From assembly GCA_020436165.1 (NCBI GenBank), contig JAGQYI010000078.1, positions 1 to 64,000 of the forward strand: a stretch of DNA of 64,000 bases. The letters run 5' to 3'. The first letter of the stretch is position 1. Every line of letters begins with the position of its first letter. The notes below the pieces were generated by a model. It was not told where the DNA came from, did not search any database, and worked only from the letters and a program-made list of their open reading frames with translations. This DNA is from Cyclobacteriaceae bacterium. GTDB taxonomy: Bacteria > Bacteroidota > Bacteroidia > Cytophagales > Cyclobacteriaceae. Shown piece after piece: positions 22,010-23,870 of the stretch. A program made the translations under genes and the position numbers.

Positions 22010-22834
22010 ATGACCAACAAGCTAAAGAAATATTTTGAAGAGCTGATTCAAAAGCCTTTCTTAACCTCCTTCATTGTATTTGTGCTGTTGGCCATTTTGA
22101 TTTTGGGGTTAAGCTGGCATTACTATGTAAATGATTTTGATAATATATACCTGAATGTGCTTGCAGAGGCACATGGAATGCTTTTCGATATTCTTATAAT
22201 TGGTATACTAATTTATTGGCTCAGGGAGGTAGGAGAAGAAAAGCAGCGTGTTCGTCAATACATTGACGAGATCGATGACTTTAGAATGTGGGAATCGGAA
22301 GAAGCAGCTTTCAGGAATGTAGGGAATATCAAAAGACTTAACCGGCACGGAGTAAACAACATTGAGCTGGTAGGCTGCTATTTAAAGAAAACGAACCTTA
22401 GCGGTGTTAATCTGAAAAGCAGCAATCTTAATACTGCCAATCTTTCTAACGCTATATTAATTGAAGCGAACTTGTCGGAGACAAGAATGAATCAAACCAA
22501 TTTTGAAAATTCAAACCTTAACCATGCTATTTTAAAAGGCACTTATGCAAGTGGAAGTAATTTTAAAGATGCTTTTATGATCAAGGCTAATCTTGAAGGC
22601 GCTTTTTTAATTAAAGCTGATTTTCAAAATGGGTTTTTAATGGAAGCTAATTTGAGCAACTGCTCTCTTGCGGAATGCAATTTTGAAAACGCCAACTTGT
22701 ACAAGGCCAATTTCGTTGGAGCTACCGGCCTAACTATAGATCAGCTTTCTAAAGCCAAATCGCTTTACCTGGCCACATTCGACCCGGACATGAAAGTGCA
22801 ACTGGAGGAACATATTCCTGACCTCATCGGATAA
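22010..22834 (+). CDS. Membrane-anchored pentapeptide-repeat protein
   Basis: A 274-residue protein with two N-terminal membrane helices (about 20-40 and 50-70), a short basic/charged linker (about 73-105), and a stretch from about 120 to 245 of pentapeptide repeats of the A(D/N)LxX type, for example TNLSGVNLKSSNLNTANLS and ANLEGAFLIKADF. Such repeats form a right-handed quadrilateral beta-helix, here exposed to the cytoplasm if the helices form a hairpin. The function is unknown. It is followed by the greA promoter and leader. Confidence 0.85.
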   Translation: MTNKLKKYFEELIQKPFLTSFIVFVLLAILILGLSWHYYVNDFDNIYLNVLAEAHGMLFDILIIGILIYWLREVGEEKQRVRQYIDEIDDFRMWESEEAAFRNVGNIKRLNRHGVNNIELVGCYLKKTNLSGVNLKSSNLNTANLSNAILIEANLSETRMNQTNFENSNLNHAILKGTYASGSNFKDAFMIKANLEGAFLIKADFQNGFLMEANLSNCSLAECNFENANLYKANFVGATGLTIDQLSKAKSLYLATFDPDMKVQLEEHIPDLIG

Positions 22835-22844
22835 GTCTTTTTCG

Positions 22845-22875
22845 TTTCAGGTTTGATAAAATTCACTTAATTTTG
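22845..22875 (+). promoter_or_regulatory. Putative greA promoter
   Basis: TTTC (22845-22848), a 19-nt spacer, and TAATTTTG (22868-22875), an exact TAnnTTTG -7 box. Transcription would start near 22882, giving a leader of about 110 nt before greA. Confidence 0.55.
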
Positions 22876-22940
22876 CATCAGATAATGGAAAATTTAACTT
22901 CAATACAGACAAAAGAATACTAGTTATAAACACTTTGTGG

Positions 22941-22980
22941 AATAACGGCTGCACTCTATTGTAGCCGTTATTTTGTTTTA
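22941..22980 (+). terminator. Intrinsic terminator inside the greA leader
   Basis: AATAACGGCTGCA (22941-22953) pairs with TGTAGCCGTTATT (22960-22972) over 13 bp with one G-U pair and a 6-nt loop, followed by TTGTTTTA. It ends about 12-20 nt before the greA start, with the GAGGAG ribosome binding site between. It could end the upstream pentapeptide gene or attenuate greA. Confidence 0.8.
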
Positions 22981-22992
22981 AAGAGGAGAATT

Positions 22993-23466
22993 ATGGCAGA
23001 GATATCGTATTACACGAAAGAGGGGTTACAAAAGCTTAAACAAGAACTAAACGAGCTTAAAACCAAAGGAAGGGCTGACATCGCCAAACAAATTGCAGAG
23101 GCACGCGACAAAGGTGATTTGAGTGAAAATGCTGAATATGATGCGGCCAAAGATGCCCAAGGGCATTTAGAAGCTAAAATTGCTATGCTGGAACAGGCAG
23201 TGGGCAATGCAAGAGAAATTGATGAATCGAGTATCGATACATCAAAAGTTAGTATTTTATCGAAGGTTAAAATTAAAAACCTGAAAATGGGAGTTACTGT
23301 TACTTACACTTTGGTAGCAGAAGAAGAAGCTGATCTAAAAGCTGGAAAAATCTCCGTTAAATCTCCTATTGGAAAGGGGCTTTTAGGTAAGAAAGAAGGC
23401 GAAGTTGCCGAAATTGAGACTCCCGGAGGACTCATGTCATTTGAGGTACTTGAAATAGGATTGTGA
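22993..23466 (+). CDS. greA: Transcription elongation factor GreA
   Basis: A 157-residue GreA. The N-terminal coiled coil carries the acidic tip GDLSENAEYDAAKDAQ with D42 and E45, which reach into the RNA polymerase secondary channel and trigger cleavage of backtracked RNA. The C-terminal FKBP-like domain ends SPIGKGLLGKKEGEVAEI. A strong AGAGGAG ribosome binding site precedes the ATG, unusual in this phylum. The stop overlaps the following HIT gene start (TGATG). Confidence 0.96.
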   Translation: MAEISYYTKEGLQKLKQELNELKTKGRADIAKQIAEARDKGDLSENAEYDAAKDAQGHLEAKIAMLEQAVGNAREIDESSIDTSKVSILSKVKIKNLKMGVTVTYTLVAEEEADLKAGKISVKSPIGKGLLGKKEGEVAEIETPGGLMSFEVLEIGL

Positions 23467-23870
23467 TGGCTTCCATATTTACACGTATTGTAAACCGTGA
23501 AATTCCCGCTTACATTGTGGCTGAGGACACAAAGCATATTGCTTTTTTAGATATTAACCCTTTGGTTATGGGACACACATTGGTGGTTCCCAAAAATGAG
23601 GTAGACTACATATATGACCTGCCCGATAGCGAACTGGCAGAATTGCATTTGTTTGCAAAAAAGGTAGCAGGTGCAATTAAAGAATCTGTTAGCTGTGAGC
23701 GAATAGGTGTTACCGTTATTGGACTTGAAGTGCCACATACACATATACATCTCATTCCAATAAATTCAATGGATGACATGAATTTTAGCAGGCCTAAGCT
23801 TTCACCTTTAAAAGAAGAAATGGATTCAATTGCAAAAACCATATCTTCTCACTTTAAAGTGAATTCATAG
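23466..23870 (+). CDS. HIT family (histidine triad) protein
   Basis: A 134-residue HIT protein with the catalytic motif PHTHIHLIPI and the N-terminal SIFTRIVNREIPAYIVAED typical of HINT-like purine nucleotide phosphoramidases. I choose the ATG at 23466, overlapping the greA TGA by one base, over the GTG three bases upstream. The physiological substrate is unknown. It is translationally coupled to greA. Confidence 0.93.
   Translation: MASIFTRIVNREIPAYIVAEDTKHIAFLDINPLVMGHTLVVPKNEVDYIYDLPDSELAELHLFAKKVAGAIKESVSCERIGVTVIGLEVPHTHIHLIPINSMDDMNFSRPKLSPLKEEMDSIAKTISSHFKVNS

Follow-up and report, generated by a model that had tools for sequence, protein, structure and literature searches.

The greA locus and its leader

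The DNA analyzed here, referred to as the window, is a stretch of 64,000 nucleotides from a Cyclobacteriaceae bacterium (GCA_020436165.1, contig JAGQYI010000078.1). It carries greA behind a short leader with a terminator-like hairpin. The following features lie at this locus:

22010..22834, + strand: pentapeptide-repeat protein, the upstream neighbour, outside the putative attenuator (open reading frame and domain call)
22845..22848, + strand: -33 element TTTC, read directly, matching TTTG at three of four positions
22868..22875, + strand: -7 box TAATTTTG, of the TAnnTTTG type, read directly
22880..22992, + strand: predicted greA leader (5' untranslated region) of 113 nt, placed from the box position
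22885..22923, + strand: upstream open reading frame (ORF) of 12 codons, MENLTSIQTKEY, 5 nt after the predicted start and kept in relatives
22941..22972, + strand: terminator hairpin of 13 pairs (one G-U) with a 6-nt loop, read directly
22968..22979, + strand: interrupted U tract TTATTTTGTTTT, read directly
22982..22988, + strand: AGAGGAG, purine-rich and resembling a ribosome-binding site, read directly
22993..23466, + strand: greA, transcription elongation factor GreA, 157 aa (NCBIfam and Pfam), start codon ATG at 22993
23463..23870, + strand: HIT-domain protein, which as called overlaps the greA stop codon, or starts just behind it

The pentapeptide-repeat gene is co-directional with greA and ends 158 nt before it. 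Many flanked loci of the same family have an ORF of about 273-305 codons upstream of greA, resembling this neighbour in size and strand. The GreA protein of the window keeps both catalytic acidic residues, since D42 and E45 align with D41 and E44 of the E. coli protein. The HIT-domain gene is probably co-transcribed with greA on one mRNA. Among 28 family loci, 16 have an HxHxH-like motif in the 700 nt that follow greA.

The TTTC element and the TAATTTTG box are separated by an N19 spacer (22849-22867). A generic sigma-70 scan was of no use at this promoter, its pattern not covering the TAnnTTTG type. In Flavobacterium psychrophilum the TAnnTTTG box is placed at -12 to -5 in the available text of PMC9723704. 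With the box ending at -5 as in that consensus, transcription would start at 22880, giving a predicted leader of 113 nt and a terminated RNA of about 97-100 nt. These coordinates agree with the original prediction, which had proposed a promoter and a leader of about 110 nt, and the 13-bp hairpin with a U tract shortly before greA that it also described can be read directly (22941-22972 and 22968-22979).

The stem arms occupy 22941-22953 and 22960-22972 and enclose the loop 22954-22959. The first bases of TTATTTTGTTTT also pair in the stem, and the tract ends 13 nt before the greA ATG. Folding of 22938-22980 yielded -20.1 kcal/mol (z -6.7), a value that none of 200 shuffles reached, while the longer stretch 22834-23010 was less striking (z -1.74, 7 of 200 shuffles). 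A generic terminator scan did not report the hairpin at 22941-22972, probably because the stem takes up part of the U tract, so that too few T remain after it. Rfam returned no match at the gathering score in five loci, and five sub-threshold matches within 22700-23100 look like chance and were rejected. Judged from sequence, the window hairpin is more than a chance fold, a question that is decided by its relatives.

The AGAGGAG sequence is not retained in L002, the nearest relative. The short upstream ORF was present in all six leaders examined, with 12 codons in each of the four from the genus (the window and three others, that is four of the five genus genomes, those with greA) and 14 and 12 codons in the two from a sister genus. 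In the genus its ATG lies 3 to 5 nt behind the predicted start; its stop codon lies 22-25 nt before the core stem (22 nt in the genus). The six leaders share 50-69% identity, and shuffling gives each of them a 2-4% chance of carrying an ORF of this kind. Among other family leaders with at least 35 nt upstream, an ORF of five or more codons was found in 0 of 11. The ORF of L002-L006 and the window is nearly leaderless, with a length that is kept and a peptide that mostly is not.

Recurrence of the hairpin among greA leaders

We searched the last 170 nt before the ATG with a detector that requires one stem-loop whose outermost pair is G-C and whose following 12 bases include at least 8 T. It replaced an earlier hairpin finder, which came back empty for 8 of 100 family leaders and chose other stems in some. 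In all counts given below relatives are not independent, and start codons and neighbouring ORFs were called mechanically.

GreA was found in 192 of 196 genomes of the family. The 100 leaders sampled from these 192 genomes comprise the 30 best-matching loci and 70 further ones, so that the sample leans toward better matches. Of the 100, 98 carry an ACGG..CCGT-type hairpin followed by a T-rich tail, and in the two exceptions (L039 and L045) hairpins of another type can be recognized by eye; this pattern and the detector were both designed after looking at leaders. The detector recovered a hairpin at dG <= -5 in 94/100. When 70 family leaders were aligned, 87.7% of the cells paired and 7 of the 13 stem pairs changed on both sides, and the covariation score of this alignment was reached by none of 500 shuffles. 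A covariance model of the family hairpin (R1) proved specific within the family, with its best match in the genome at greA in 33 of 35 family genomes with a known greA place, at least 23 of which were also in its training set; the misses were G004 and G009. As a tracer through the phylum R1 was dropped, since 57 of 148 genomes matched at E <= 0.1, apparently at generic A+T-rich terminators.

To reach beyond the family, two further sets were used. The phylum sample consists of 49 leaders from 118 greA genomes (the 30 best loci minus the window's own, plus 20 picked by hand), 46 of them from other families and three from the same family (L131-L133). Hairpins at dG <= -5 were detected in 43/49, or in 40/46 once the same-family members were removed. 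The named set holds the best 80 of at least 584 confirmed candidates, overlaps the other genome sets at least once, and spans Flavobacterium, Pedobacter, Chitinophaga, Bacteroides, Hymenobacter, Dyadobacter and others. Here 57 of 80 leaders had a hairpin at dG <= -5 and 69 at -4. Among the 11 misses, five show a hairpin by eye (L282, L298, L303, L314, L318) and L338 perhaps does; L295, L320, L337, L340 and L349 show none by eye either. A hairpin conserved among greA leaders, which had been proposed as a check of the original prediction, was found within the family, in other families and in the named genera.

The stem sequence is often constant inside a family or order and different between them. 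Pontibacter, Hymenobacter and a Dyadobacter have the same ACGG..CCGT stem as the window's family. Several Flavobacterium have a AATCCCGT..GGGATT stem, two Chitinophaga loci CAACGC..GCGTTG, two Pedobacter CAAGACTA..TAGTCTTG, and a Bacteroides GGGTTCC..GGAATTC.

Control leaders from the same family rarely matched at dG <= -5 (recA 1/29, with one of 30 loci left out for lack of a usable start or enough upstream sequence; purA 4/30; pgk 4/30), and shuffled greA leaders matched in 69 of 1000 cases for the family and 57 of 490 for the phylum sample. On the opposite strand the detector found 15/100 (family), 2/49 (phylum sample) and 6/80 (named set) in greA leaders, and 2/29, 0/30 and 1/30 in those of recA, purA and pgk. 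The T count in the 12 bases was 9.5, 9.0 and 8.9 on the sense strand vs 5.4, 4.3 and 4.6 on the opposite strand, a bias that is partly built in by the requirement for 8 T, so that the detector run on the opposite strand is the fair control. The detector is not blind to ordinary terminators, since 51 of the 88 control gene ends gave a match (dG <= -4). It also recovered the E. coli GraL hairpin (-16.6 kcal/mol).

Paralogues resembling greA occur at 19 places in 12 genomes, 18 of them with a locus. Two of these 18 leaders had a strong hairpin (L368 and L370), two a weak one and 13 none, and one was without a start candidate (L376). The strong terminator-like hairpins of L368 and L370 stand upstream of possible starts. 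Two detector matches in one leader were seen in 17 of 149 cases, 10 of them behind a box. In L016, L019, L032, L042, L047 and L088 a second, unrelated terminator-like hairpin separates a greA promoter box from the conserved hairpin. Some upper matches look like chance, and tandem terminators are not claimed.

Position of the promoter relative to the hairpin

A hairpin followed by a U tract in front of greA could also end the transcript of the upstream gene, greA then starting below it or being reached by read-through from upstream. The window itself would allow this, since its pentapeptide-repeat gene runs in the same direction and ends 158 nt before greA, and stem and U tract resemble an ordinary 3' terminator. 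We compared the position of the promoter box with that of the stem in leaders with a hairpin at dG <= -4 (95 in the family, 47 in the phylum sample and 69 in the named set). In 81/95, 23/47 and 55/69 of these leaders the 100 nt preceding the stem contain a TAnnTTTG box, against shuffle expectations, preserving single-base composition only, of 5.6, 2.8 and 4.9. Between stem and ATG the box occurred in only 2/95, 0/47 and 1/69. In control leaders a box anywhere in the last 170 nt was found in 9/29, 4/30 and 10/30. Of the 81 family boxes, 76 are accompanied by a match to TTTG at three or four of four positions with a spacer of 17-21, where the best spacer was used and some matches are due to chance. 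After removal of same-family members from the phylum sample, 20 of 44 leaders had the box upstream and 24 were without an exact TAnnTTTG; other families thus often do without the exact box.

The orientation of the upstream gene gave a further indication. The neighbour is divergent at 13 of 59 loci with enough flank and at 31 of 80 named loci, and a hairpin at dG <= -4 was retained at 11 of the 13 and 25 of the 31. At these loci the hairpin cannot end the neighbour's transcript. With the box above the stem in most leaders and the hairpin kept next to divergent genes, a mere transcript end is highly improbable, including the form that the original prediction had named as its alternative, in which the hairpin just ends the pentapeptide gene. 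By the consensus box, the hairpin is predicted to lie inside greA's own transcript and is a feature of greA, not the end of a neighbouring gene. Leader comparison thus indicates that the order promoter, hairpin, greA, the hairpin itself and the U tract on the greA strand recur across the phylum.

Probable attenuation of greA

The arrangement corresponds to that of a GraL-type leader, with a terminator between the predicted greA promoter and greA, near the start, and to that of an attenuator, in which a stem-loop and, directly behind it, a U tract precede the start codon. Among leaders with a box, the stem core lies at +10 or earlier in 23/81 (family), 16/23 (phylum sample) and 31/55 (named set). 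In the family, 64 of 81 have it at +35 or earlier and 17 beyond; the window, with its first G-C pair at +67, belongs to the latter and has its stem farther from the predicted start than most relatives. For the 81 leaders, from all three sets, that have at least 15 nt upstream of the stem, we compared pairing of this upstream RNA with the 5' arm and loop, as expected of an antiterminator, to shuffled sequences. None of the 81 reached z <= -2, and the mean z was +0.30 (57 family leaders), +0.81 (5 from the phylum sample) and +0.38 (19 named). The best folds of 27 of the 81 do pair at least five bases of the 5' arm with the upstream RNA, at energies not beyond those of shuffles. As the stem often begins no more than 10 nt after the predicted start and no antiterminator was detectable, control, if any, probably acts on the polymerase at the hairpin.

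The greA hairpins also differ from 3' intrinsic terminators of the same family, with which they share a stem and a U-rich tail. Besides their leader position, a CGG..CCG stem was found in 76/95 greA leaders vs 2/51 control terminators. A run of four T immediately behind the outermost G-C pair was present in 13/95 family greA leaders vs 40/51 control terminators, so that the tract in the family is typically interrupted; the other greA sets had such a run in 13/47 and 18/69 leaders. Interruption of the U tract should weaken termination. The interrupted tract would therefore fit partial read-through, though the median stem energies are similar (-9.9 for greA, -11.9 for control terminators).

Control of this kind is known from E. 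coli. According to the available text of PMC6829880, GreA represses greA through GraL in cis, and GreA D41A cannot repress; when greA is lost, expression from a fusion of promoter and leader rises about 3.5-fold. The terminated RNAs measure 37-59 nt, and about one third of transcripts read through. The same text reports that the feedback was seen in vivo only and not in vitro, so that a further factor is apparently needed, and that GraL acts in trans as well. Sequence preceding the hairpin also matters in E. coli. The original prediction had proposed that this design occurs in a distant phylum, and the comparison of leaders strongly supports the shared architecture: promoter, short leader, intrinsic terminator, then greA. 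Unlike in E. coli, the promoter is of the Bacteroidota type, and the stems have no evident similarity to that of GraL. Many of them lie at +2 to +10, with almost no sequence upstream, whereas the E. coli hairpin follows after 19 nt (PMC6829880).

Attenuators in greA and rnk leaders of Proteobacteria, bacilli and Clostridia were described by Naville and Gautheret (2010; PMC2965389), and the premature terminator upstream of greA and its trend across species are common to their cases and ours. In the available text, however, each case shown (enterobacteria, bacilli and others) has a clear antiterminator, and none was detectable here. Its main text contains no word beginning with Bacteroid or Flavobacter, and the 302 genomes scanned there may include Bacteroidota. 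Structured 5' elements of F. psychrophilum share phylum, promoter type and leader-based control with the greA leaders; those named in the available text of PMC9723704 are pheA, hisG, ftsY, acsA, alaS and rimP, and greA is not among them. The main texts of PMC7366714 and PMC8040213 do not mention greA, and in the literature searched no greA-leader attenuator was described for Bacteroidota. With the E. coli case and the greA and rnk attenuators already in print, the Bacteroidota version is a variant of that kind.

We consider it fairly probable that this element attenuates transcription of greA close to the promoter, with GreA itself setting read-through. Polymerase would start at about 22880 and transcribe a leader whose only strong structure is predicted to be the intrinsic terminator. 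We infer partial termination at the U tract (22968-22979): some polymerases would stop there and release an RNA of about 100 nt, and those reading through would produce the greA or greA-HIT mRNA. The presence of a terminator in most relatives examined across the Bacteroidota suggests that the amount of GreA is set by the polymerases that pass it, as in E. coli. If the parallel holds, active GreA acting on backtracked polymerase at the hairpin would favor termination, resulting in negative feedback. An antiterminator would find no space in many leaders, and those tested gave no signal of one, so that the hairpin and the polymerase would themselves be the sensor.

The terminator might instead provide unregulated damping, removing a fixed share of transcripts below a strong promoter with nothing being sensed. 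The lack of a detectable antiterminator is in line with this, as are stems that differ between orders, which is expected if termination alone is needed. A weaker promoter would be the cheaper solution, but most leaders examined have the terminator, and greA of E. coli is feedback-controlled through its leader (PMC6829880), so that we regard plain damping as rather unlikely, though a serious candidate. In the window's genus, the upstream ORF raises the option of a leader-peptide attenuator, where translation behind the polymerase alters backtracking or termination. Its presence in 6/6 leaders despite their low identity, against 0/11 of the other long family leaders, speaks for this option. The peptide, however, shows little conservation and no run of a single codon, an estimated gap of about 7 nt would separate a ribosome at the stop codon from the stem, which it would hence not melt, and among the leaders examined the ORF is absent outside two genera. 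Control by a leader peptide is therefore improbable.

A hairpin that stabilizes an mRNA usually sits near the 5' end of the transcript. Many greA stems lie within 10 nt of the predicted start and would suit protection of the 5' end, or an effect on translation, with an incidental U tract. Such a hairpin would not need a U tract behind the stem, yet the tract is strand-biased (94/100 vs 15/100), which leaves this explanation with little probability. A comparably small chance is given to a function of the released leader as a small RNA in trans. GraL does act in trans in E. coli (PMC6829880), but leader length and stem sequence vary between the orders of Bacteroidota, and many of the predicted RNAs would consist of the hairpin with hardly any single strand.

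Starting from feedback through an attenuator, a broader proposal can be put forward only tentatively, and we hold it to be possible rather than probable: greA-leader terminators across bacteria could be direct sensors of GreA activity, an old or repeatedly rebuilt circuit that is tuned by the ORF in the window's genus. Such a sensor would do without an aptamer or an antiterminator and often without any RNA upstream. The hairpin would pause and backtrack the polymerase a few dozen bases from the start, and GreA would decide between termination and escape. Stems might be replaced over time while position and function are kept, and the nearly leaderless ORF would add tuning in the window's genus. 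Apart from this proposal, the Bacteroidota leaders may serve as minimal natural versions of the E. coli feedback, the mechanism of which is unexplained. Their recurrence, the stems at the 5' end and the absence of a detectable antiterminator suggest that terminator and polymerase may be enough. For transcriptomes of Bacteroidota, the firm prediction is a short RNA of about 30-100 nt from the greA leader.
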